A stretch of 12,845 nt of DNA from Prevotellaceae bacterium (GTDB lineage: Bacteria > Bacteroidota > Bacteroidia > Bacteroidales > Bacteroidaceae). Shown one piece after another: positions 1-12,687 of the stretch. The stretch lies in assembly GCA_022508685.1 (NCBI GenBank), contig JAFLUS010000023.1, forward strand, positions 1-12,845. Reading direction: 5' to 3'. The notes below the pieces were generated by a model, which worked only from the letters and a program-made list of their open reading frames with translations, made no database searches and was not told the DNA's origin. The position numbers and the translations under genes were made by a program. Numbering within the stretch: the first letter of the stretch is position 1; every line of letters begins with the position of its first letter.

Positions 1-1492
1 GGCTACGTTGGGTATTTTTGTACCTGAGAATGGCGAAAAGCCTGCGTCGGTTGTGGCAGTCATCAATCCTTCAGATGCCGTAGAGGCTGCTTCTGGAGCG
101 AAAGTCGGCAATGTTACCGGTCCGTCTCTTGCGGAACTTGAAGGTTGCGTTGCTAATTATGAAAAGGGTCTGGTTTCCGAAAACTTTGTCATGAGCAATT
201 CTGCCTATGTCAGCACGACCGGTAAGGAACTTGCCACAAGTCTTGTGAAGGCAGATGGTTCGTACTTCAAGAGCAGTGTAGAAGCGGCTCTTGCTGACCC
301 CATTACGATTTATGTGGAAAGAGTGGTTGCCCGTCTTGACCTCTGGAATGATTTGGCGACAACAGATGCTAAAACCATCACTAAAGAAGGCGAAGGCACG
401 TTTACGATTTATCCCCTCAAGATAGTAGATGCTGCTACAAATGCAACAGTGGAGGATGTGACTATCAATGGTAAAGCGCAAAAGGTTTACATCAGATTCC
501 TTGGCTGGAACGTCACAAGCACTGCGACCAAATCAAATCTTTTGAAGAATATCAATCCGGCATGGACAAGCAATGATTTGTTTGCCAAGACGGGAGAAAC
601 GGCTGCTACTGCATGGAATAATCCGACATTCCACCGTTCTTTCTGGGCAATGAACCCAAATAACGTAACCTTCGGTTATGGTGATTTCAATGGTAAATCA
701 ACTGCTGCTGATAACCTCTATCCTGCTACATTGACGATGCCTGCAGATAACCAAAACCCGGCAATCACCTATCTGCAGGAAAATGCCTCTCCTTACGATG
801 AAGATGGCGCGGCTGCTGCTCCTACGTCACCAACCAAAGTGATACTTGCCTGCCAATTAGTGGATGAAACTGGCACGCCTATCCGTCTTGCAGAATGGGG
901 CTTCCAGAAGTTTACAATCGACGCACTTAAGAGTTATCTCCTCGGAACAATCTGCAAAGAGAAGTTCTATGTGAAAAAGACGACTACCGAAAATGGTGAG
1001 ACTACGACTTCATACACCCGTCTTGTAGAGGATAATTTCAAATTTATTACTGCTAAAGAAAAATTTGGCGCAACCCTTCCCAAAGGTGTGAATAATTATT
1101 ATTCTTATCTTGTTCTCGATTATACGCTCGAAACAGGTGAGACACTGACAAAAGGCGAAGGCGATGCTGCTCAGGATGTAGATGCTGCCTATATCAACAA
1201 GTATTTGCTCGACACGGTCAACTACTCAATGATTTGGGAACAAGGCTATTCTTACTATTTCTTTGATGTACGTCACCTTGGCGCTGAAGAGTCTGTCGGA
1301 TATAATGGTATCGTCAGAAACCATATCTATGACACGCATGTCAAGTCTATCGTAGGTATCGGTACGCCGGTTCTGAACCCGGAAGAAACCATCTATCCCG
1401 AGAAGCCTGAATACGAAGAAAGCATCGTTGCTGCAGAAATCAAGATTCTGCAATGGCGTGTCGTGAGCAGCAATTACGAAATTCAGTGGTAA
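1..1492 (+). CDS. mfa1: Mfa1-family major fimbrial (stalk) subunit, 5'-truncated
   Basis: Major pilin that polymerises into the shaft of a type V (Bacteroidales) fimbria on the cell surface. The frame is open to the left edge of the window, so the TTG at position 8 is not the real start; the signal peptide, lipobox and N-terminal Arg cleavage site lie upstream. About 496 codons are present, and family members are usually somewhat longer. Family signatures visible: 'VVAVINPS' near the N-terminal edge, 'FVMSNSAYV' (about nt 182-208), 'YVERVVARLDL' (about nt 311-343), 'FLGWNVTSTATKSNLLKNI', 'FHRSFWAMNP', and the C-terminal fimbrillin block 'YNGIVRNHIYDTHVKSIVG' followed by a conserved GTPV and a PEKPE stretch. 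It ends in ILQWRVVSSNYEIQW, the strand expected to be donated to the neighbouring subunit. The other seven genes follow on the same strand after a 102-nt gap with a hairpin. The identification is firm; the symbol marks the family, not proven orthology to P. gingivalis Mfa1. Confidence 0.93.
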   Translation, partial: ATLGIFVPENGEKPASVVAVINPSDAVEAASGAKVGNVTGPSLAELEGCVANYEKGLVSENFVMSNSAYVSTTGKELATSLVKADGSYFKSSVEAALADPITIYVERVVARLDLWNDLATTDAKTITKEGEGTFTIYPLKIVDAATNATVEDVTINGKAQKVYIRFLGWNVTSTATKSNLLKNINPAWTSNDLFAKTGETAATAWNNPTFHRSFWAMNPNNVTFGYGDFNGKSTAADNLYPATLTMPADNQNPAITYLQENASPYDEDGAAAAPTSPTKVILACQLVDETGTPIRLAEWGFQKFTIDALKSYLLGTICKEKFYVKKTTTENGETTTSYTRLVEDNFKFITAKEKFGATLPKGVNNYYSYLVLDYTLETGETLTKGEGDAAQDVDAAYINKYLLDTVNYSMIWEQGYSYYFFDVRHLGAEESVGYNGIVRNHIYDTHVKSIVGIGTPVLNPEETIYPEKPEYEESIVAAEIKILQWRVVSSNYEIQW

Positions 1493-1520
1493 TCCTCTTG
1501 ATTTTAAGATGACATCATGT

Positions 1521-1552
1521 TCACCGAGAGTGATTTTCGTCACTCTCGGTGA
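1521..1552 (+). promoter_or_regulatory. Perfect 13-bp hairpin between the stalk and anchor genes
   Basis: The arms TCACCGAGAGTGA (1521-1533) and TCACTCTCGGTGA (1540-1552) are exact reverse complements around a 6-nt loop, TTTTCG. The hairpin begins 28 nt after the pilin stop codon and ends 48 nt before the anchor start codon. No T-tract follows (CTTCCTCC then A6), so it does not look like a full intrinsic terminator. The likely role is to protect the 3' end of the abundant pilin mRNA, or to act as a partial terminator or processing point so that the downstream minor subunits are made in smaller amounts. I found no convincing Bacteroides-type promoter (TAnnTTTG) in the gap. The structure is seen directly; the role is inferred. 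Confidence 0.75.
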
Positions 1553-1600
1553 CTTCCTCCAAAAAATAGACTTCTGTTCATTACTTTCTCAAATGTGTCT

Positions 1601-2683
1601 ATGAGAATTTTGAGATTAGCAACATCCTTTTTTAAGTCGGTATTTGTGGCGACCGTCGCACTGCTCCTGTTTTCGTGCGACAGCGTCATTTATGACGATG
1701 AAGGAGATTGCGTCGTAAAACATCGCTTGCGGTTCGTGTATGACATGAATCTCAAGTGGGCGGATGCATTTGCATCTGAAGTGAATTCCGTCAACCTTTA
1801 TGTGTTCGACCATAACAAGTTGTTTGTAAAGGAATATGCTGTTGCTGGCGATATGCTGTCGCAACCGGGATACAGGTTGGATCTTGACCTCCCCGCGGGC
1901 GACTATTATTTTGTGGGGTGGTGCGGTCTGAACAACAACGGCGTCATGATGGAATCATTCACCGTCAACCCTCCGAAGGTTGGCGTCACCACCATGGATG
2001 AACTCATCTGTACACTCAACACGAAGCCTTCGCGTGCCGACGATGACATGCCGACGTGCGACAGCCGTCTGAACTTCCTTTACCACGGCTATCTGGAAGC
2101 AACGCTTCGTGACACCAAGGACGGCGCAGAGTATGAGTATACGATGTATCTGACGAAAGATACCAATCATATCAGAATTATATTGCAAGAATTGTCTTCA
2201 GACGAAGACATGGATGCTTCGGACTATGAAGTCAAGATTGAAACGGCTAACGGAACACTGGCTTACAACAATGCGTTGCTTGGCAATACCGTCATTTCCT
2301 ATCAGCCGTGGGGTCTGACGGACGATTATGTCGGAGTGGGCAGAGTGGATGTCGAAAACGGTGACATCAAATATGTAAAAGGCGTTGTGGCAGACTTAAG
2401 CACGAGCCGAATGATGGCATCGCAGAAGAATGACTTCATGCTGACCGTGACACGGAAGGACAGCGGGGAAGACATCATCGCCCGGGTTCCCGTGATACAA
2501 TATGCCCTTCTTTCACGTTCATATTACGAAATGGCGTATGGTCACCAAATGACTGACCAAGAATTTCTTGACCGTGAGGATGAGTATGTAATGACTTTCT
2601 TCCTTGAAAAAGGAAAATGGATAAGCAGTTATATCGATATCCTTCAGTGGAGAATCGTTATAAGCAACTACGATATCGGATAA
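1601..2683 (+). CDS. mfa2: FimB/Mfa2-family fimbrial anchor lipoprotein
   Basis: Predicted outer-membrane lipoprotein of 360 residues that anchors the base of the fimbria and limits its length. The ATG at 1601 is preferred over the in-frame GTG at 1595, because it puts a compact basic and hydrophobic signal peptide directly before the lipobox LFSC (Cys26). The acidic stretch after the Cys (YDDEGD) suits Bacteroidetes surface export. The block RLRFVYDMNLKWADAF (residues 42-57), followed by VNSVNLYVFD and the segment around YYFVGWCGL, is typical of the FimB/Mfa2 family. The C-terminus, ILQWRIVISNYDIG (347-360), nearly copies the end of the stalk pilin. No T-R-A type cleavage site is seen after the first strand, which fits an anchor that keeps its lipid and is not trimmed. 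The next gene starts 2 nt after its stop, so translation is probably coupled. Confidence 0.92.
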   Translation: MRILRLATSFFKSVFVATVALLLFSCDSVIYDDEGDCVVKHRLRFVYDMNLKWADAFASEVNSVNLYVFDHNKLFVKEYAVAGDMLSQPGYRLDLDLPAGDYYFVGWCGLNNNGVMMESFTVNPPKVGVTTMDELICTLNTKPSRADDDMPTCDSRLNFLYHGYLEATLRDTKDGAEYEYTMYLTKDTNHIRIILQELSSDEDMDASDYEVKIETANGTLAYNNALLGNTVISYQPWGLTDDYVGVGRVDVENGDIKYVKGVVADLSTSRMMASQKNDFMLTVTRKDSGEDIIARVPVIQYALLSRSYYEMAYGHQMTDQEFLDREDEYVMTFFLEKGKWISSYIDILQWRIVISNYDIG

Positions 2684-2685
2684 AG

Positions 2686-4074
2686 ATGACAAAGACGCTA
2701 TTGCGACAAATAGTTACGCTTTTTCTCGTCGCCATGGGCATGACGGCATGCGTTTTCGACCATTATGAAGATGCAGAAGACGTTGTTGCCAAGCATGAAG
2801 GCGAGGAAAAGGTGGTCATGCTGTTCCAAGTCAACACCATGGCGTCCTCAAGCACGGACGAAAATGGTGTCTCTGAAAAGATTAAATCTTTACGTATCTT
2901 TGTGCTCAACGAGGACAGCATAGAATGCAATCGTCTTATACAGATTGACAGCAACGTGGATGCTGTTGATTTTTCATACGACTTTCAATGGTGGACCAAG
3001 CCCGGTGTCAAACAATTGATAGTCATTGCCAACGAAGAAAGCGTTTCGGAACTGAGTTATATACCGGTCGTGACTGATGAACCGGATTTGGAGGAAAAGG
3101 CAGAGGAACTGCCGACGACGCTTCCGAAGAATTTGACAGAACTTCTGAACTTGTATAGTAACGATTCCGAGTATCCCAACCATTGGGATGCCAAGGAACT
3201 GAAGAAGGTGATGAATGCAATTGCTTTCGAACCGGAATACACGGTCAATGACAAGAAGGAGATATTCCTCCCTTATGCAGTGTCGTATGCGGATATTGAG
3301 GTACAGAAAGCCGAAAAGAAACCGATGCCGATTTACCTTGTGCCCGTGGCGACAAAATTCATCTTCAAATTCTCCAACAGCCGTAGTTACCCTGTCAACA
3401 TAAACGGCATATCGCTTGCCTACACGAATGCTTCCAGTTACCTGCTCGGACAAGTGGGGAAAGATGATTATACGAAGCAGTATGACGGCAAAGACTTATA
3501 CTGGGTAGATTGGTTGGCGGAAGTTTCGAAAAAATCATGGGGCTCTCAGGGATTTTCAGAAAATGAAAGTTTCAATGAGTCGGTAGGTTGGATTGTGGAC
3601 TATTCAGTACCTCGTCCAGAAGAAAGTATACTGACGACATTTGTTGGAGAGGAACTCAACAATACGTTCACCATACCAGAAGGAACAAAAATAACCGGAG
3701 AAACGGAGGAGGATGAAACGATTGAGCCGGGGACATATTCCACTTCAATCTTCTACATTCCGGAAAGCATCAACAAGACAAGGCCGGATGACGGCGACGA
3801 GAGTGACGACACGGATGACGGGCAAAGATTTTATCTGACGTTGAAAATGGAAGATACTGCCCCCAACGTAACGGCTCCGATATTTGAGAATGTCGTGATA
3901 CCCAATCTGAAAGCCCTTTTCCGCAACACTTATGTCATCATCACCATCAACATGTCGGAAGGAGACATGGAACTCTATGCCGAAATAGCGTCATGGAATA
4001 AAAAGACAGCCCATGGGCACGTTGCAGAGGGAGATGCTCCAACCAACAATCCGTTTAAGATAATTGGGAAATGA
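2686..4074 (+). CDS. Minor fimbrial subunit lipoprotein (Mfa/FimC-like)
   Basis: Probable accessory subunit of the same fimbria, 462 residues, exported as a lipoprotein. The frame is open further upstream inside the anchor gene, but the ATG at 2686 starts a proper signal peptide with lipobox GMTAC (Cys22), followed by an acidic stretch (FDHYEDAED). After a first strand (VVMLFQVN) come KIKSLRIFVLN, 'KQLIVIANEE' (109-118), 'PIYLVPVATKFIFKFSN' and 'YWVDWLAEV' (272-280), a layout seen in minor subunits of the FimC / Mfa3 kind. A very acidic loop, PDDGDESDDTDDG (367-379), lies in the C-terminal half. The last strand, 'ELYAEIASWNKK', resembles a fimbrial C-terminal strand but runs on about 20 residues past the Trp. 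No Arg follows the first strand, so the usual cleavage site is not apparent. It overlaps the next gene by ATGA. Adaptor, or second anchor-like role: inferred. Confidence 0.8.
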   Translation: MTKTLLRQIVTLFLVAMGMTACVFDHYEDAEDVVAKHEGEEKVVMLFQVNTMASSSTDENGVSEKIKSLRIFVLNEDSIECNRLIQIDSNVDAVDFSYDFQWWTKPGVKQLIVIANEESVSELSYIPVVTDEPDLEEKAEELPTTLPKNLTELLNLYSNDSEYPNHWDAKELKKVMNAIAFEPEYTVNDKKEIFLPYAVSYADIEVQKAEKKPMPIYLVPVATKFIFKFSNSRSYPVNINGISLAYTNASSYLLGQVGKDDYTKQYDGKDLYWVDWLAEVSKKSWGSQGFSENESFNESVGWIVDYSVPRPEESILTTFVGEELNNTFTIPEGTKITGETEEDETIEPGTYSTSIFYIPESINKTRPDDGDESDDTDDGQRFYLTLKMEDTAPNVTAPIFENVVIPNLKALFRNTYVIITINMSEGDMELYAEIASWNKKTAHGHVAEGDAPTNNPFKIIGK

Positions 4075-5279
4075 CAGGAAAAAGAACATATTGGATATGG
4101 ATATTCGCGGCCATTCTCATGGGTGCTTGCTCGGAGCATGAAGAAGGGACGCAACCGACGTCTGAATATTGCAATGACGATTGCATATTTGTTGCCAAGA
4201 ACGATGTAAGGAAAGCATCGGGAGTGGGAGAAGACGATACGGAGGAAACCGAGCCGATTATCATCGGTGGATTTGAAAAAGGCGACCTGCTCTATTTCTC
4301 GCAGATGCCTCAAGGAAAAGACCCGAATTTCTCCGACTTTGATGAAAATGCTTCCAATTATCTCTATATATATGAATACAATGAAACCGAAAATGCGTCG
4401 TGGTCGGAAGGGTACAACTTTCAGGTACACGAGGACAAGAAAGGTTTTAATTGGGATGATGTCCTCAAGGTAGGCCCAAGTGGAAATGCGTTTAAGTTTT
4501 TTGGTTTTTATTTTCCTGTAGACCAAAAGCCAACATGGTGTGTACAGACAAATCAGACGGGAAGCGAGGAGGACGGATACTCCAAAGAAAACTTCATGAA
4601 ATCTGACATCATGGGGGCATACCATGCGACTTCCTCGATATTCACCCGAATGCGCTTCCGCCTCTTTCACCTGATGACCTATCTTAAGGTTACGCTGTAT
4701 GTCCCCGTTTATGACGGCTCGTCCGATAATCCTGACGACCTGAGTTATTCCGGATATAATGCAGGAGCGTTGAAAGGGGGATACGTCATGGACGCGATAA
4801 CGGATTTCACTATCGAGTGGGCTGTTGCCAAGAGTTCTGACTCGGAAGCACCGCTTGTGCAGACAAAGGCAGATGCAAAGAAACAGCACATTCAAATGTA
4901 TAGGCATCAGTCGGATGAAACTGCCATTAAATCATTGGAAGTGGCTGATTATTATAGCGAACCGGTCGACGGCATTACGGATGGGGTTGATGAAGTGAGA
5001 ACCTATCATTTCAGTGTGCTCTTCCCGACTCAGAATTTCGATGGCAATTTTCTGTGTTTTGCCCTGCAGACGCCGGGAGGAACGACGAAATACTACTATT
5101 TCTCTGCCGCCCAACTTATCTCACACGATGGCGATAGTTTCGGACTGACACAGGGAACACTCCAGCAACTTTATCTCTACCTTCCAAGAAAGACAAATCA
5201 GACGGTATTGGTAAGTGCGAAAATCTTGCCATGGAAAGATGCCACCACCGACATGACCGTTAACAAGCAATCCGAATGA
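4071..5279 (+). CDS. Fimbrillin-family minor subunit lipoprotein
   Basis: Predicted surface lipoprotein of 402 residues with a fimbrillin-like (Mfa-like) fold, probably a structural or adaptor subunit. The ATG at 4071 overlaps the previous stop (ATGA). The signal peptide ends in lipobox LMGAC (Cys20), then SEHEEG. A first strand (CIFVAKNDVRKASG) holds a candidate cleavage Arg at 47, although the next residue is Lys rather than Ala. The core motif MRFRLFHLMTYLKVTLYVP (from residue 194) matches the 'F.H..s.l.v' strand of fimbrillin-like proteins. The end has the typical sequence of an F.L.qGtlqqLyLyLp strand, then KILPWKD (384-390). The protein stops 14 residues after the Trp, without the C-terminal extension of the four genes that follow. 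Two Cys lie close together (34 and 38) before the candidate cleavage point. It overlaps the next gene by ATGA. Confidence 0.8.
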   Translation: MTGKRTYWIWIFAAILMGACSEHEEGTQPTSEYCNDDCIFVAKNDVRKASGVGEDDTEETEPIIIGGFEKGDLLYFSQMPQGKDPNFSDFDENASNYLYIYEYNETENASWSEGYNFQVHEDKKGFNWDDVLKVGPSGNAFKFFGFYFPVDQKPTWCVQTNQTGSEEDGYSKENFMKSDIMGAYHATSSIFTRMRFRLFHLMTYLKVTLYVPVYDGSSDNPDDLSYSGYNAGALKGGYVMDAITDFTIEWAVAKSSDSEAPLVQTKADAKKQHIQMYRHQSDETAIKSLEVADYYSEPVDGITDGVDEVRTYHFSVLFPTQNFDGNFLCFALQTPGGTTKYYYFSAAQLISHDGDSFGLTQGTLQQLYLYLPRKTNQTVLVSAKILPWKDATTDMTVNKQSE

Positions 5280-6721
5280 AAAAAATATCACATAGCATCA
5301 TCTGTCCATTCATCTGCTTCATGACCATCATGATGGTTATGCAGGGATGTGCCTCCGACCAGTTTGAAGATGTCCGTGAAAAGGATGATACTTTTCCACG
5401 CCTCAGCGTAACGGCTGCTTTAGCCGGTCAGACTTATACGAGAGCCTACCAAGACGAGGGACAAGTTGTAGATGGAAAATATTATCTTTCCTATCCTGCG
5501 ACAGACAATGTCTATACGGTCGCTATAGTGGATTTTGACAAACAAAAGACCGAAACAGAGGGATTGGGAATTGTATCATCTTTGGATGGTGAAGAATTGG
5601 CATGGAACAAAATCGGAGGTTCACCGGTCGATTTTTATCTTGATAATGTGGGCAATGAATATGGTTCTTCATCGCTCGTGACGTTTGATGACGATAATCC
5701 TAATCCTTTCGTTGCCGGTCTTTTTGATTTTGAGAATGGTAGCAACGATTTGCTATGGGGAGAGAAGAGTGTGTATCGGAATACTAAAACCCTGAACTTC
5801 GACCTTCATCATTGCATGTCAAGAATTAGGGTGCAGGTACAGGTGGCTAAATCTGACCAATCAGTCGATGATATAACGCTTGATGATGCCACGGTAGAAA
5901 TTACCAATCTGTATACCACTCCACGGACATACAATCGCCTCGACGGCGTTCTTTCTCCTGCCGACGATGCCGAAACTGCCTCTGTTGTGGTCGTTTCTTC
6001 CGATGAAGAATATAAAGAATATGGATGGAAATCTATATCCGCTTCAGAGGAGAATTCAGACATCATCACCTATCTGTCCAAAGACATAGTCATTCTTCCG
6101 CAGTCGCTTGCCGAAGATGTCAACCGACCGCAATTAAAAATCACATTGAGCGACGGGCAGGTCTATTCCGGTATTCTGCCTCACGCCATGCTCATCGCTA
6201 ACAGCGAGACAGACAATTCGCTGAATTATCCTGTCACCCTTGCTTTCCTTCGGGAGCATATCCTCACGATACGCACTTTGATTACGGAGGAACCACCTCA
6301 ACTCGCTTTTATGCCGGTATGGGTAACTGATTGGGTTGACAAAGGAGAATTCACGTTGGAGGCTCATCAATCGGGCGTGTATACCGCTTCTGAATTCTCC
6401 AAATTGATAGGGTATTATCAAGACCATAATGAATATCAACTTGTGCGGTATGGGTATCTCTTTACTCCCGAAGGCACTGACACGCAAAAATGGCGGTTCA
6501 ACATCTTCAGCAGCGTTGTGCTTCAATTTGATGACATCTACGACACAATGATACCCCATACCGACGTTGGGGAGAAGGGAGAAACGAAGGACTTTGAATT
6601 TGTCTTTAATAACTATGCTGTATATATAGAGAAGGATGGTGAAAGTGAAATGAAACAAGTAACAGAACCTCAATTATATGCAATAGTGACAGGTAATCCG
6701 AATTGGGAACAAATCCGCTAA
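5276..6721 (+). CDS. Fimbrillin-like lipoprotein with short C-terminal extension (tip candidate)
   Basis: Predicted surface lipoprotein of 481 residues, first of four related proteins. The ATG at 5276 overlaps the previous stop; the signal peptide ends in VMQGC (Cys25), then acidic residues (ASDQFED). The first strand SVTAALAG leads to TYTRAY, with the candidate cleavage Arg at 56. The fimbrillin core strand is LNFDLHHCMSRIRVQV (173-188), and the domain closes with MPVWVTDWVDKG (346-357). A linker follows, GVYTASEFSKLIGYY (367-381), predicted helical and matched in the next three genes, then about 100 residues (YLFTPEG, FNIFSSVVLQFDD, FNNYAVYIEKDG) with no visible GLUG-like repeats. It may be a short-headed tip or an adaptor. 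The exact ligand is unknown. The next gene starts 4 nt after its stop. Confidence 0.77.
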   Translation: MKKISHSIICPFICFMTIMMVMQGCASDQFEDVREKDDTFPRLSVTAALAGQTYTRAYQDEGQVVDGKYYLSYPATDNVYTVAIVDFDKQKTETEGLGIVSSLDGEELAWNKIGGSPVDFYLDNVGNEYGSSSLVTFDDDNPNPFVAGLFDFENGSNDLLWGEKSVYRNTKTLNFDLHHCMSRIRVQVQVAKSDQSVDDITLDDATVEITNLYTTPRTYNRLDGVLSPADDAETASVVVVSSDEEYKEYGWKSISASEENSDIITYLSKDIVILPQSLAEDVNRPQLKITLSDGQVYSGILPHAMLIANSETDNSLNYPVTLAFLREHILTIRTLITEEPPQLAFMPVWVTDWVDKGEFTLEAHQSGVYTASEFSKLIGYYQDHNEYQLVRYGYLFTPEGTDTQKWRFNIFSSVVLQFDDIYDTMIPHTDVGEKGETKDFEFVFNNYAVYIEKDGESEMKQVTEPQLYAIVTGNPNWEQIR

Positions 6722-6725
6722 CGAA

Positions 6726-8483
6726 ATGATGCAAAAATATATATTTTTCCTTTTGTCGTCTATTGTGCTCTTCAGCACTTCGTGCACTTCCGATGATGAA
6801 TGGGTGATGCCGGAACGCCCCTTGTCTTCGCCGTTGGTCATCAATGCACATATTGCAGGTTCGGCAGCCACACGCGTTGTCGTCAATCCGAAAAAAAAAG
6901 CAGACGAATGGTCGTATATCGATTTTACGGAAGATGATGTCATGGGCTTCTTCGCGTCCGGAGGAAAGTTCACAGAAGGAACATACGGACAAGCACCATT
7001 TATTAACCAACCATTGGTCTATACAGGAGGTGTCGGCGGAGAAAATTTCCGTGACCCCGACAATACCGATTTCAGTCCCTCGCACATGAATGGGAATGAA
7101 ATATACATGTATTTCCCCTATGCGCCTTCTATCACTGACGCGAATGGATTTACTCTTCGGACAGATAAAGGCACAGGTGGTGAAACACTTGACACACTCA
7201 GGTGTGTAGACTTTCTTTCCACTAATCATCTTGATATATTGAGCGAAGGCGTTTCGTCTTCGGCGGCTTTGTATGGAGAATTCTATCATACGTTTGCAGA
7301 ACTGATTATCATGCGTGGAGAAGGCTTTGATAATCCTCCCGCATCGCTCGGAACGGATAGGTGGAAAATCAGAGCCGTTCTGAATACGCCGGTTACCGGT
7401 ATCCGGACTGCGCTTGCCGAAGATGGAGAGTCGTGGAAATGTACTCCGGAACTCGTATGGGACTCTATTAAGGTTGTCGACAGATTGGAGGCATCCACTT
7501 GGGAAGCATGGCATGGCGGCAATTATTCTAAGACACAACAAGACACAATAGGTCAGAGTGCTTGGTATGTCATCGTGCCGACATTGGGCTGCAAGGCGGC
7601 TCAAGGAGCGCAAAGAGAGGGCGAGCGAACAATTGTGCAATATATCGAACTCTATGACAATGACGGAAACCTGCAACGAGTGTCGACGCTTCTGTTGAGC
7701 AATGGAAATTCAAAATATGTAGACGGCGGTTGGCGCTATCCGATGGAAATCTCTCTCAAGGAACTCGTGCCGACAGCCTATCCGTGTGAAATCGTTCCAT
7801 GGGTGGACGAAGTTGACCTTACCGACGAACGAAGCCGAGGCATCAATAACGCACAGGAATTCGAAAGATGGGTGCAAGCCTACAATCTTTATCTTCGAGA
7901 GCCTACTGAAGAGCATAGCAATGCGCTGCTCCAATTTGGAGATTTATATATCAAATCTGATGAAACAAAATATTGGCATTTCTATGTATTGAAAGACCTT
8001 GACTTGTCGGGATTTTCAGATACCCCGATAGTGCCTGTGTTGAGAGATATCTTCGATGGCCAAAGCACCATATATGCCAACGGAGGACACGGAAATAACA
8101 CCATTTCCGGATTGTCTACGACATTATTCGGAACCATAGAGGGAGAGAATGCAAAAGTTCAGAATTTCAATATAAAGAAGCCCAAAGTCAATTACGGAGA
8201 CAGCAACACCGACCCTGTCGGCATACTCGCTAACACGATTTCAGGCGGCGGGGCAGTGGAGCATTGCAACATACAGGACGGAACGCTTTACAGTCCGAAT
8301 GCTGCAGCCGGAATGATTGCGGGAAAGGTGGAGCAGGGCTCTGTGAAGAACTGTACGGTTTCCGGTTTTCTTGTCTCTTCTTCGACACACGATGGTGTAA
8401 TCGGAGAGAAAGGCAGTTATTATGCGGAAGAAAACAATGATGCGAGCAACGTCACTACGACGTCTGTGGAGCAAGAACCTTAA
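6726..8483 (+). CDS. Fimbrillin-like lipoprotein with C-terminal beta-helix-like region (tip adhesin candidate)
   Basis: Predicted surface lipoprotein of 585 residues. Two ATGs stand side by side (6726 and 6729); either gives the same signal peptide, ending in FSTSC (Cys20) and followed by TSDDE. First strand LVINAHIAG, then AATR (Arg50), the candidate cleavage point, followed here by Val rather than Ala. Fimbrillin core strand YGEFYHTFAELIIMRGE from 183; domain end CEIVPWVDEVDL from 354. The linker INNAQEFERWVQAYNLYL (373-390) resembles those of its neighbours. Then comes a parallel-beta-like region: VLKDLDLSGF, FDG (443-445), TISGLSTTLFGTIEG, and two coils, VGILANTISGGGAVEHCNI (from 498) and AAGMIAGKVEQGSVKNCTV (from 527). 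This layout suggests a binding head. Codons 56-58 are a run of nine A bases that could slip. The next start is 10 nt beyond the stop. Confidence 0.78.
   Translation: MMQKYIFFLLSSIVLFSTSCTSDDEWVMPERPLSSPLVINAHIAGSAATRVVVNPKKKADEWSYIDFTEDDVMGFFASGGKFTEGTYGQAPFINQPLVYTGGVGGENFRDPDNTDFSPSHMNGNEIYMYFPYAPSITDANGFTLRTDKGTGGETLDTLRCVDFLSTNHLDILSEGVSSSAALYGEFYHTFAELIIMRGEGFDNPPASLGTDRWKIRAVLNTPVTGIRTALAEDGESWKCTPELVWDSIKVVDRLEASTWEAWHGGNYSKTQQDTIGQSAWYVIVPTLGCKAAQGAQREGERTIVQYIELYDNDGNLQRVSTLLLSNGNSKYVDGGWRYPMEISLKELVPTAYPCEIVPWVDEVDLTDERSRGINNAQEFERWVQAYNLYLREPTEEHSNALLQFGDLYIKSDETKYWHFYVLKDLDLSGFSDTPIVPVLRDIFDGQSTIYANGGHGNNTISGLSTTLFGTIEGENAKVQNFNIKKPKVNYGDSNTDPVGILANTISGGGAVEHCNIQDGTLYSPNAAAGMIAGKVEQGSVKNCTVSGFLVSSSTHDGVIGEKGSYYAEENNDASNVTTTSVEQEP
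6891..6899 (+). repeat. A9 homopolymer inside a tip-adhesin candidate gene
   Basis: Nine consecutive A bases encode Lys56-Lys58, six residues after the candidate cleavage Arg50. It is the longest A-run I noticed in the window. Losing one A would shift reading to a frame that ends at TGA/TAA-type stop 7087-7089. Gaining one A would stop at 6935-6937. Slippage is possible but not shown. Confidence 0.85.
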
Positions 8484-8493
8484 ACTTTCAGAC

Positions 8494-10845
8494 ATGATAC
8501 AAAAGTACAGATATTTATTGCTTTTCGTTCTGTTTCCTGTTTTGGTAGGATGTGCAGACGACATGGGCTTATCTGAAGCAGATTCCGTGCACAATGGAGA
8601 ACTGCCCGTCGAATTTCATTTCGAATGGCCCGGAATGACGGATACGAGAGCATTCGACGATGTCAATGTCAAAACAAAGTTTGGCAATGATGACGTCATT
8701 CATATTGTTGGTACGTTCAAGACAAGTGCGTTGCAGGAAGACGGAACTTATAAGGAAGGCACCGTTTCACGATACGGCGCATTGAAATATGATGCTACCA
8801 ATAGAAAATGGAATGCAGTGGCGGGTAGCACGCTCACTTGGCCCTCCATTTCTACTGAAGGTAAGTTCTATGCCTATTACGAAAGCACGTCAAGTGGATT
8901 GTTTACCCAATATGACACTCCTATAGAAATCAATCTTTCGGAGGTGACGCCACAGACCGACCCTCTGATGGCTCCGGAAACGTCCGACATGCCGTATGGA
9001 CATGCTGTACATCTTCGGTTCGAACATCTTTGCACCTACTTGTCTCTTGTCGACCTCGAGCCAATGGTTGCTTCTCAATATTTCTTCACGACTCCCGACT
9101 ATAAAATAGGAAGTAAGGACGCACCAAAGGACTTCCATAATGGTTATCGACTCTCTTTGGTCAACAATGCGCCGGAGTCCGAAGTTCCACAGCCGGCACT
9201 GAAATTTGAATTTGTTCAAATTCCGGACGAAACCTATGAAGGACTGATATATATAGCGGGTAATGCCACGACCATACAGCATTCCGACGATGACGAAGAA
9301 GTCAAGGCAACAAAGGTCGGCTATTTCCTTGAACCGGGACTTTACAATAAATTTCAGTTGAGTTATTCTTCCATCGCCCCCAAAACGTATAATTATCTTA
9401 CCTATGATTATGAAAGTATCCCGCCACAGATGGGAGGAATAGACAAACAAAACACCCCGCCCGATTTGGCTGCAGGTCATACCTATGTATTGACCGTGAC
9501 GAAATCGCCGGGTGTCACCATTGAGTCTCCTCCTTCGGGAGAAGGTTGGGATGAAACGGACGTATCATACGATGTGGAAGTGGATGAATTCCTGAAATCC
9601 ATACGCGAAGGAAGGGAATATCGGAATAAAAGTGACATACTGATACTTGAAGCCGTGCCCGGAGGCACGCGGTTGCTTCATAATGTCGATTTCCACGGAG
9701 AGAATTATGAAGATTTTCAGCAACTTGGCTTCCTCCCTGATGTGTTGGGCGGTAGGACTTTTGACGGAAACTATCATTATATTATGAACCTTGGCTGTTC
9801 TCTCTTCCGCAACAACTACGGCACCATACAGAATTTGGGGCTGAAAAATGCCGTCATCAATACGACATCCATAGAATATACGTATGGAGAAGAAGAAGAC
9901 AATACCCAAGACAAAAGCCGTCACGGAGCCCTTTGCATGTGGAACCGCTCCGATGGCATCATCAGCAATGTCAGACTGGAAAATGTCGATATGACCGTTT
10001 CTGTGCAATATAATAACGACGATGCCGACGGCAGCGAGGTGCACAACATCGGAGCCGTAGTGGGTTCAAATACCGGAAGCATCTCGGAATTATATTTAAG
10101 CGGACGCTTCAACCTCACGGTAGAAGGAGCGGATGTACAGAACGCCGAGGTGCTTATAGGTGGTCTGATGGGGCAAAATGCGGGTTCCGGAACAATCAGC
10201 AATGTCTCCCTCCTCAAGGATGATTTTCAGATGCAGATAATGAACAAGTGCAGCAGTGCCTTGGGACTTTATGCCGTAGGAGGAATAGCCGGTAAATCCT
10301 CTGGAATGATGAGTGGAATTATCATGACAGATGTGTTTATTGATTGCAGAGAAAGTACAGGACTTGTGTCTTATCTCGGCGGTATGGCAGGTCAATTGGA
10401 AGTGACCGGCGCATCCTCCGTCGGATATATGAATGACTGCATCTTGAGCGGCTCTGTACAGGCAGGTAAAACCATTGCTGACGAGAAAATTCCCGGACAG
10501 GCCTACACAGGCGGCATGGCGGGGTACGACAACAATGTGCCCGTCACAGATTGTCGGGCGTCAGTGTCCGTCATCGGTTCACAGGCAGTCAGCAGTCGGG
10601 TGACGTATGGTACAGGAGGCGCTTTCGGTCGGATATTCAATTCGTCGACTTTTGAAAATCTCATCACCTATGGCGCACGATTGGTTGCTCCCACCGGCAC
10701 ACCCGAATCCGATGCAAATCATATAGGCAACTTTGCGGGAATTGCACCTGAAGGGCAGTCTTGGGAAAAGGATTATGCCGACAAGAACATCATCTTCCAT
10801 TCCTTCGCCGGTCTTGAGGAAATAGGCGCATTCCTTTCAAATTAG
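8494..10845 (+). CDS. Fimbrillin-like lipoprotein with seven GLUG-like coils (large tip adhesin candidate)
   Basis: Largest protein here, 783 residues, predicted to be a surface lipoprotein with an N-terminal fimbrillin module and a long C-terminal beta-helix. The frame is open upstream to 8422, but the ATG at 8494 directly precedes a clean signal peptide ending in VLVGC (Cys20), then ADDMG. First strand PVEFHFEWPG, then TDTRAF with the candidate cleavage Arg at 52. Core strand VHLRFEHLCTYLSLV from 172. Linker DVSYDVEVDEFLKSIREG (356-373). Then FDGNYHYIMNL (423-433) and CSLFRNNYGTIQNLGLKNA, which look like the first turns of a GLUG-type helix. Seven coils follow, starting with a G-G-hydrophobic-x-G pattern (residues 519-749), and a short C-terminal cap ends in LEEIGAFLSN. 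There is no fimbrial C-terminal donor strand. Beta-helix heads are common in adhesins; the ligand is unknown. It follows the previous gene by 10 nt. Confidence 0.8.
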   Translation: MIQKYRYLLLFVLFPVLVGCADDMGLSEADSVHNGELPVEFHFEWPGMTDTRAFDDVNVKTKFGNDDVIHIVGTFKTSALQEDGTYKEGTVSRYGALKYDATNRKWNAVAGSTLTWPSISTEGKFYAYYESTSSGLFTQYDTPIEINLSEVTPQTDPLMAPETSDMPYGHAVHLRFEHLCTYLSLVDLEPMVASQYFFTTPDYKIGSKDAPKDFHNGYRLSLVNNAPESEVPQPALKFEFVQIPDETYEGLIYIAGNATTIQHSDDDEEVKATKVGYFLEPGLYNKFQLSYSSIAPKTYNYLTYDYESIPPQMGGIDKQNTPPDLAAGHTYVLTVTKSPGVTIESPPSGEGWDETDVSYDVEVDEFLKSIREGREYRNKSDILILEAVPGGTRLLHNVDFHGENYEDFQQLGFLPDVLGGRTFDGNYHYIMNLGCSLFRNNYGTIQNLGLKNAVINTTSIEYTYGEEEDNTQDKSRHGALCMWNRSDGIISNVRLENVDMTVSVQYNNDDADGSEVHNIGAVVGSNTGSISELYLSGRFNLTVEGADVQNAEVLIGGLMGQNAGSGTISNVSLLKDDFQMQIMNKCSSALGLYAVGGIAGKSSGMMSGIIMTDVFIDCRESTGLVSYLGGMAGQLEVTGASSVGYMNDCILSGSVQAGKTIADEKIPGQAYTGGMAGYDNNVPVTDCRASVSVIGSQAVSSRVTYGTGGAFGRIFNSSTFENLITYGARLVAPTGTPESDANHIGNFAGIAPEGQSWEKDYADKNIIFHSFAGLEEIGAFLSN
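10048..10749 (+). repeat. Seven GLUG-like protein repeats (residues 519-749 of the large adhesin)
   Basis: The repeats begin IGAVVG (519), IGGLMG (555), VGGIAG (595), LGGMAG (628), TGGMAG (672), TGGAFG (707) and IGNFAG (744). Spacings are 36, 40, 33, 44, 35 and 37 residues. Several are followed by a short turn and an 'I-S-N-V-x-L' or 'x-D-C-x-x-S' strand, as in the GLUG motif family. The DNA itself is not obviously repeated, so these are old, diverged protein repeats rather than a recent tandem duplication. Confidence 0.75.
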
Positions 10846-10873
10846 ATTAGACTTAATTGATTTCAAAGCAAAC

Positions 10874-12613
10874 ATGAGACTCCGAATACGAACAAATCAT
10901 TCAAGAATAAGAACCCTGCTGCTTGGTGTCGCAGTGGTTGTCGGCACTTGCCTTGTGGGCTGTACAGACGAACTTGCAGACTTCACCTCTTCTGCAAAGC
11001 CGTCTGGCGGTCTGAATTTTAAGGCATACATAGAAGAGGAAGGCACCCTGTCGACACGTGCGGAGGGTTTAGATTCAATATATGTGGCGTATGAGCCTTG
11101 GAATCAGGATTTCTATATCCAGTTGAATACAACCGATGACGCCGGAAAGGAAGTAGTGAAATATGGAGTCTATGAAGTGCCGTCGGCTTACGAAGGTCGG
11201 CTTGAACCCAAAGATGTTGCCAAGGCGTTGAATTGGAACAATCTGAAGAATGCACATACCTTCTATTCATGGACCATTCCATGGATGAAAACCGCTTCAG
11301 AAGACACGCCGTCCGACAATCCGTCTGCAGAGGATGAAGGCACTCAGTATTATTCACCCTCAGATAAGTCCGTTCCCGTCTATTTTTATAATTCGTCAGA
11401 GGAACATGGGTATGAGCAAAACCACAATAATGCGGTCTACGAAGGATTTATCGGAGCAAAATCAGAAGCATTCAGTTATGCGGAGCATGGCAAGTATGTA
11501 GAACTGACATTCCATCATCTTGTATCAAAAATCAAGATAGCCAGCCTGATTTTGATACAGACCGATGGTTCAGTCCAGAAGAACCTTCAGGCAGACATGA
11601 CATTTGTCGGCATGCCCGTACAGGCGACGTTCTATCCTCATCCGAAAGACGATGACGAGAGCGGTGCGCCAAAGGGATGGCGTCCGTATGTGGGTGCGCC
11701 TTATGAAGCATCTCCTGACACAGGCGTAACCTACTATATACACAACCGCCCGAATTTCCAAGATATATTCTATGTCTGCCCCGAAGTGAATTTTTCCAAG
11801 ATAGATTATCAGATAAAAATCAACACCAAAGGTTATGAGACCCTCCAGACCTACTATGGAACATTCGACGATGTAGTGTTTGAAAGGGAACCCGGTTGGG
11901 GTTATGACCGCGGCGAAGAGGATGAAAATGGTGAGATGACCGACGCGAAAATCCTCCATGCAGGCGAAGAAATGCTCCTCAACATCGTGCTCATCCCGGG
12001 AAAAGGCCCCGGCTTGAAGGTGATTATCAAAGATTGGAGCACCGAGCAGCCAAGAGAATCGGAATATCACCCTCATCAAGGATTTTATTCCGATGCCGAG
12101 TTGCAAGAACTGCTCGACCTGTTGTATGGTTTGGATAAGAATACCTACGACAACCCACCGGCCGAATTGGAACTTCTTTTTGAGATGTATGGTTACACGG
12201 GAGAAGACGGAAAAAAATATTTCCCTCTCTATGAAAACCTCACCCCGCGGAAAGGCAACTCGGTGAGCGGTATCTTCCCTATTCCGCCGGGATACATCAT
12301 AGACGGAATGGGGCATGTCGTCACCCTGAAGACAAACGAAGGCTCTTATTGGCCTAATGAAGGGCGTTCAAAATATTTCAACGTCGGCGGCTTGTGCCGT
12401 GACATATATTTTACGGACGAGAACGGCAACAATACCATTTATATAGACAGCGATGGCTATATTTGGGTGACAAACCCCGAAACCGGGCTGTTGGAACAAA
12501 CGAAGAACCAATTGCCTGCTGAAATGCCTCCGGGAAAAAGAGGGTTTGACATCAGTTGTACGACAGGTAGCATCCGCGAAACTGAATATTATAATGACCA
12601 GATAGTAGGATAA
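10874..12613 (+). CDS. Fimbrillin-like lipoprotein with C-terminal extension (tip candidate)
   Basis: Last gene of the operon, 579 residues, predicted surface lipoprotein. The ATG at 10874 begins a long basic n-region and a signal peptide ending in CLVGC (Cys30), followed by TDELAD. First strand GLNFKAYIEEEG, then TLSTRAEG with the candidate cleavage Arg at 62. Fimbrillin core strand YVELTFHHLVSKIKIASLIL from 208; domain end LKVIIKDWSTEQ, with Trp388. The linker GFYSDAELQELLDLLYGL (403-420) matches the preceding three genes. The extension of about 160 residues contains IIDGMGHVVTL (475-485) and NVGGLCRDIYF (503-513), which look like one or two beta-helix turns, then ENGNNTIYIDSDGYIWV and a Cys-containing tail. 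It lies 28 nt after the previous gene, with no terminator between, and 32 nt before the operon terminator. Function as an alternative tip is inferred. Confidence 0.78.
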   Translation: MRLRIRTNHSRIRTLLLGVAVVVGTCLVGCTDELADFTSSAKPSGGLNFKAYIEEEGTLSTRAEGLDSIYVAYEPWNQDFYIQLNTTDDAGKEVVKYGVYEVPSAYEGRLEPKDVAKALNWNNLKNAHTFYSWTIPWMKTASEDTPSDNPSAEDEGTQYYSPSDKSVPVYFYNSSEEHGYEQNHNNAVYEGFIGAKSEAFSYAEHGKYVELTFHHLVSKIKIASLILIQTDGSVQKNLQADMTFVGMPVQATFYPHPKDDDESGAPKGWRPYVGAPYEASPDTGVTYYIHNRPNFQDIFYVCPEVNFSKIDYQIKINTKGYETLQTYYGTFDDVVFEREPGWGYDRGEEDENGEMTDAKILHAGEEMLLNIVLIPGKGPGLKVIIKDWSTEQPRESEYHPHQGFYSDAELQELLDLLYGLDKNTYDNPPAELELLFEMYGYTGEDGKKYFPLYENLTPRKGNSVSGIFPIPPGYIIDGMGHVVTLKTNEGSYWPNEGRSKYFNVGGLCRDIYFTDENGNNTIYIDSDGYIWVTNPETGLLEQTKNQLPAEMPPGKRGFDISCTTGSIRETEYYNDQIVG

Positions 12614-12645: not shown

Positions 12646-12687
12646 TAAAGTCCATTCGGAATTTCCGAATGGACTTTATAGTTTTTT
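12646..12687 (+). terminator. Intrinsic terminator of the fimbrial operon
   Basis: A 14-bp perfect stem (12646-12659 paired with 12665-12678) closes a 5-nt loop AATTT, whose outer A-T can add one more pair. Four nucleotides later comes a T6 run (12682-12687). It begins 33 nt after the stop of the last adhesin gene and is the only stem plus T-tract I found in the window, which supports reading the genes as one transcription unit. Confidence 0.9.

Follow-up and report, generated by a model that had tools for sequence, protein, structure and literature searches.

How one shaft could make use of four different tip-type proteins is the question raised by contig JAFLUS010000023.1 of a Prevotellaceae bacterium (assembly GCA_022508685.1). 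The window analyzed here is this one entire contig, 12,845 bases from a fragmented 2.06-Mb genome, which open reading frame (ORF) calling fills, nearly without gaps, with eight plus-strand genes designated A to H (Table 1). It carries a type V (Mfa1-type) pilus operon of gut Bacteroidales that encodes a single shaft protein and a single anchor along with four large proteins of tip type: in Pfam searches, a stalk gene of the Mfa1/FimA family adjoins an anchor gene of the Mfa2/FimB family, and E to H, the predicted lipoprotein pilins of tip type, have an arginine in the loop that follows the first strand. An initial annotation had read the last four genes, E to H, as interchangeable tips. The gene sets of related operons, together with analogy to Porphyromonas gingivalis, make it moderately probable that E to H instead hold nonredundant places in one composite tip, with C and/or D connecting the shaft to that tip.

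The gene set in related operons

A profile of H detected 13 orthologous loci in a species-genome collection, so that the presence of H in these loci is given by construction, whereas that of C to G is not. Their labels are Muribaculaceae or Paramuribaculum in 12 cases and Bacteroidales in one. In all 13 loci, C-D-E-F-G-H are present, full length, and in identical order; the stalk gene adjoins this block in 12 of them and the anchor gene in 10. In two loci (L059 and L066) C follows A with no B in between, and in a third (L058, positions 1 to 11970) the C-to-H block lies without an adjoining A or B and with an unrelated gene upstream of C, an A-B pair of that genome being on a separate contig (L112).

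Further operons were located through their anchors, without use of E to H. The 13 genomes contain 48 Mfa2-family matches, two to seven per genome; ten of these regions were examined with long flanks and some of the remaining matches with short flanks. Four of the 10 regions (L115, L116, L117, and L120) hold a second, diverged operon with A to H in the same order, each gene matching the profile of its own family only; the stalk match in L117 is merely a short frame. The other six regions comprise an orthologous locus encountered again (L124, which is L065) and five of other kinds, in which no match to E to H was found.

The window and its 13 orthologous loci (14 type-1 operons) plus the four second operons make 18 operons, and E to H are complete and constant in order in every one. 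Loss or swapping of an E-to-H gene was seen in none of the 18 (with H present by construction in 13), which shows, on gene content and order, that C to H are inherited together as one block and suggests that the set is fixed. Because interchangeable parts should at times be lost or swapped, this constancy weakens the inference of alternative tips. Neighboring genes in the C-to-H block are separated by −8 to 81 nucleotides (nt) in the 14 type-1 operons, and 9 of the 70 gaps are negative with the starts chosen by our script.

Tip-class architecture of E to H

E, F, G, and H are all predicted lipoproteins. The T-R site that the initial annotation placed after the first strand is present in each of the four window proteins, and its arginine is kept, beyond what chance would give, in all 18 operons in E, G, and H and in 17 of 18 in F, the F protein of L066 having lysine instead. 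A tryptophan precedes the tail or extension in every one of C to H in all 18 operons. In E to H, the extension after this tryptophan covers 115 to 503 residues over the 18 operons, and the lengths in the window (Table 1) agree with the roughly 100 to 400 residues originally described. The E protein has 115 to 132 residues after the tryptophan in the 14 type-1 operons and is far longer in the second operons (438 to 469 residues, in open frames of 839 to 905 residues); the size classes of F, G, and H are unchanged there.

Judged by Pfam matches and by these lengths, E to H each add a further C-terminal domain to a fimbrillin-like fold. Their architecture is that published for tip-class type V pilins, which are reported to combine a cleavable N terminus, a pilin fold, and an extra C-terminal domain (PMC12632263). 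Mfa_like_1 matches at an expectation value (E value) of ≤0.1 occur in 13 of the 14 E sequences, in 8 of 14 for F and likewise for G, and in 38 of the 57 sequences of H. Among the proteins of the window itself, E scores above the cut-off, G slightly below it, and H weakly (0.085), and F has no Pfam match at 0.1. Searches of solved structures with the profiles of C to H returned no usable template beyond 4k4k, which was matched by the profile of F and its orthologs (1.3e-5, covering the pilin part) and weakly by that of E (0.036).

Profile comparisons indicate that the four proteins are distantly related to one another. The alignment of E with F spans the tryptophan and the start of the extension (84.9%), and that of E with H takes in the greater part of E (83.8%). 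G aligns with the greater part of F (78.0%) and with H over roughly the first 110 columns (92.3%). Peptidase_M26_N is matched in 5 of 14 G orthologs (best 0.00029) and in 2 of 14 F orthologs, and the GLUG motif is matched in 2 of 14 G orthologs; no phage match to G was found. Both models describe GLUG-type repeats, and these weak matches make a beta-helix fold likely for the F and G extensions. The extensions are slightly less conserved than the pilin parts in three of the four proteins and are not hypervariable: over 91 pairs for each protein, pairwise identity averages 0.49 in the pilin part and 0.44 in the extension of E, the corresponding values being 0.52 and 0.47 in F, 0.50 and 0.51 in G, and 0.56 and 0.47 in H.

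The remainder of the operon and its distribution

The stalk protein of the window has 496 residues, compared with 578 to 623 in full-length relatives, and it begins past the point at which those relatives have their arginine site. It matches Fimbrillin_C in Pfam (1.4e-14) and fim_Mfa1_fam in NCBIfam (2e-27, under the cut-off of that model), and by homology its C-terminal strand would act as the donor strand. The anchor B matches Mfa2 in Pfam (2.7e-53) and has the solved relatives 4qdg (5.3e-41) and 3gf8 (3.2e-29); no S/T/A/G-R site was seen after its first strand. ILQWR lies near the C terminus of both proteins, followed by 10 residues in A and 9 in B. That such ends are confined to A and B was stated correctly in the initial annotation, which passed over the short free tails of C and D. 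A short free tail is thus present in four proteins (A to D) and absent from four (E to H).

Only 13 to 28 residues follow the conserved tryptophan in C and D in the 18 operons, and neither protein has an extension. The D tail reads ILxW...MTV plus a few residues, with MTV invariant in 14 of 14 type-1 operons, and the C tail is mostly W..K..NGWVTEG... across the same 14; the tails of both proteins in the four second operons differ from these. The C protein of the window matches the FimA family at 0.00034 (21.3 bits against a cut-off of 21.4), and for D the fimbrillin-like matches are weak and come from 2 of 14 orthologs. In the type-1 operons, the loop residue of D is arginine in 9 of 14 and lysine in the remaining 5, and an S/T-R site occurs in 9 of 14 C proteins; of the other five, those of L058 and L060 have an arginine elsewhere nearby, and those of the window, L057, and L063 have none. 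Because the S/T-R site is absent from C in 5 of 14 type-1 operons and a loop arginine was not seen in three of the four second operons, C may in some species escape cleavage and remain bound to the membrane.

Table 1. Features of the window, with positions counted from the first base of the contig
Feature	Position	Strand	Remarks
A: Mfa1-type stalk pilin	2..1492	+	C-terminus ILQWRVVSSNYEIQW; Fimbrillin_C; fim_Mfa1_fam; 5' end cut by contig edge
B: FimB/Mfa2-family anchor lipoprotein	1595..2683	+	Pfam Mfa2; C-terminus ILQWRIVISNYDIG
C: FimA-type pilin with short free tail, candidate adaptor	2686..4074	+	25 residues after Trp; loop without Arg
D: pilin with short free tail ILPWKDATTDMTVNKQSE, candidate adaptor	4071..5279	+	
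E: tip-type pilin	5276..6721	+	Arg site in TYTR (...QTYTRAY); 128 residues after Trp; Mfa_like_1 1.2e-11
F: tip-type pilin	6726..8483	+	Arg site in AATR (...SAATRVV); 226 residues after Trp
G: tip-type pilin	8494..10845	+	Arg site in TDTR (...TDTRAF); 431 residues after Trp; GLUG/M26_N-like repeats in orthologs
H: tip-type pilin	10874..12613	+	Arg site in LSTR (...LSTRAEG); 191 residues after Trp; C-terminus conserved
Terminator-like hairpin, 32 nt after H	12646..12678	+	15 pairs, 3-nt loop, T-rich tail; probable operon end

Terminator-like sites in the window number 10, with 10.2 expected, and the hairpin after H is the probable end of the operon. An Rfam search of the window gave zero matches at gathering scores. 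In four other loci, a DUF3575 gene and a TPR-matching gene lie upstream of the stalk gene (L105, 8459 to 10555; L106, 15706 to 17787; L107, 6922 to 9020; and L108, 16289 to 18433); by Pfam, DUF3575 is matched in L106 and L107, TPR in L105, L106, and L108, and DUF3868 weakly in L105. The window starts inside A, and the corresponding region falls outside the contig.

In a large protein collection, H has 230 relatives at an E value of ≤1e-3 and E at least 152. At ≤1e-20, among 301 genomes of the family of the assembly (its genus included) and 295 of its order, H occurs only in the genome of the window. The 13 orthologous loci of H lie in mostly Muribaculaceae-labeled genomes, yet none lies in the 300 other family genomes or the 294 others of the order sample. 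This distribution may reflect misbinning of the contig or transfer of the operon.

The anchor, by comparison, is found at ≤1e-50 in 24 of the 301 family genomes, that of the window included, and all 26 family anchor regions outside the window were compared. None of the 26 has a match to E, F, G, or H at ≤1e-3. In nine (L032 to L039 and L044), A and B are followed by a C-like pilin and then by one lipoprotein whose open frame spans 1018 to 1169 residues; most of the others have different downstream pilins. These Bacteroidaceae-type Mfa operons, as we name them from the inferred family, share with the window the order of stalk, anchor, and C-like pilin but have one long lipoprotein where the window has D to H. 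From this comparison, the multiprotein module looks like an enlarged version of a stalk-anchor-adaptor-tip plan, limited to one lineage among the genomes examined. Many long proteins in the tip position of the family loci (L032 to L056) end in or near an RCVRD-like motif. Our literature searches turned up no paper on this gene set, a statement that extends only to those searches.

One composite tip or separate filaments

The closest precedents are the accessory pilins of P. gingivalis. The genes for its Mfa1 fimbria form a single cluster of stalk, anchor, and then tip genes, and Mfa1, Mfa3, and Mfa4 are lipoprotein precursors with an arginine in the first loop, as are E to H of the window. Mfa3 is reported to continue for about 105 residues past Trp341, the equivalent of which starts the free tail in the shaft protein, a length resembling that of E, and removal of its last nine residues left polymerization unaffected (PMC5789003). 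The same source describes Mfa4 as having its C terminus and last strand built into its own C-domain, with no free tail. By band intensity, Mfa3, Mfa4, and Mfa5 copurify at about 1:1:1 (PMC4789730), and loss of any one of them is reported to remove all three from the fimbria (PMC5954841). In the FimA fimbria, which likewise has several accessory pilins (FimC, FimD, and FimE), mounting of FimC and FimD requires FimE (PMC12785474). The initial annotation argued that a protein with a cleavable N terminus and no free C-terminal strand can only cap a filament. Its assignment of tip-class architecture to E to H stands; the step to sole caps, and from there to four interchangeable tips, is not supported, because Mfa3 and Mfa4 share one fimbria and because E to H are present, full length, and in one order in all 18 operons.

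These systems also differ from the operon in the window. Both P. gingivalis fimbriae have three accessory proteins, compared with six (C to H) here, and Mfa5 is a von Willebrand protein exported via the type IX system. Type V pili of Bacteroides have been described as having a single kind of tip pilin each, whereas this operon has four. The solved-structure matches of the C-to-H profiles include no Mfa3, Mfa4, or Mfa5 chain, and, since E to H are not detectable sequence relatives of these proteins, the precedent is one of architecture only. Because all four genes are kept together, we nevertheless favor a composite tip in which their products have separate places, as Mfa3 to Mfa5 and FimC to FimE do, the joint presence in 18 of 18 operons being one of genes only.

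Under this reading, the tip module of an Mfa1-type pilus would be enlarged to six proteins, C to H, working together. B would anchor the fimbria, and A would polymerize by arginine-directed removal of its first strand followed by insertion of the C-terminal strand of a neighbor. C and/or D would link shaft to tip through their short free tails. E to H would be lipoprotein pilins that mature by loss of the first strand, use their C-terminal domains (in F and G of beta-helix-like form) for adhesion, and touch one another through the new N terminus or the extension domains; other contacts of this kind would be needed because C-terminal strand donation cannot chain E to H to each other. A narrower proposal, which we consider plausible but short of probable, is a multi-headed composite tip whose four pilins are all terminal acceptors with separate C-terminal heads, joined by contacts other than C-terminal strand donation and beyond the known assembly rules for type V pili.

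The terminal-acceptor logic of the initial annotation is a real problem for a composite tip. If only C-terminal strand donation operates, just one of E to H can end a filament, and the lack of a short free tail in all four proteins throughout the 18 operons, with the arginine site kept, would then imply that each caps its own filament, giving four filament types on one kind of shaft per cell. Unequal extension lengths would suit different ligands, and in Parabacteroides distasonis one Fim cluster is reported to contain one or the other of two fimE-like genes but not the two together, so that tip genes can be swapped between strains (PMC9409006). Separate expression is conceivable as well, since sigma-70-type promoter-like sites (32, with 21.6 expected and a standard deviation of 4.5) leave room for internal promoters. 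In the search for a phase switch, a single match to a Bacteroides-type promoter (0.42 expected) fell within gene F. Across the 18 operons and within the window, however, we found no independent loss, swap, switch, or diversification of the kind that a set of alternative tips would display, H being present by construction in 13. The window contains no invertible or hypervariable element that we could see; the inverted repeats listed (25 of 27 pairs) are imperfect (74 to 88%) save for the terminator hairpin, in a search limited to a window that starts inside A, when the usual switch site is upstream of A. With the precedent of Mfa3 and Mfa4, which share a tip with no free C-terminal tail, four separate filaments appear unlikely.

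More improbable still is that some or all of E to H lie off the tip, either along the shaft or as cell-bound surface lipoproteins coexpressed with the fimbria. All four are predicted lipoproteins, the C-to-H block can stand apart from A and B (as in L058), and the exact location of FimC to FimE is itself described as debated, their copies exceeding what a tip location alone explains (PMC12785474). E to H nonetheless keep an S/T/A/G-R site (or, in one F protein, a lysine), which is typical of subunits that leave the membrane and was not seen in B.

Several further points tell against a composite tip. It is drawn from gene content, gene order, and sequence, and co-inheritance means that all four genes are kept, not that their products are placed in the same filament. 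All 13 orthologous loci derive from a single series of metagenome-assembled genomes (HAN); with H as bait, loss of H alone would be invisible in them, and only part of the 48 Mfa2-family matches were seen with long flanks. In favor of a composite tip, on the other hand, the extensions are conserved nearly as well as the pilin parts, the genes from C to H are almost contiguous, and in L058 these genes stand with no A or B upstream. Also in its favor, pairwise distances are strongly correlated within D to H (Pearson r, 0.87 to 0.95), less so between D to H and C (0.76 to 0.78) or A or B (0.42 to 0.71), but these values include the shared species tree and some A sequences are truncated. Spearman coefficients within D to H are looser (0.45 to 0.84) and lowest in pairs with E.

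For the question of how type V tips with several accessory proteins are assembled, a question that P. gingivalis also poses, this tip module of six genes offers a clean natural case, since four of its proteins lack a free donor strand and loss of any of the four has not been seen: either a number of pure acceptors meet in one tip through some further contact or one cell makes four kinds of filament from one operon. If the composite tip is true, a contact other than C-terminal strand donation must hold four acceptors together.

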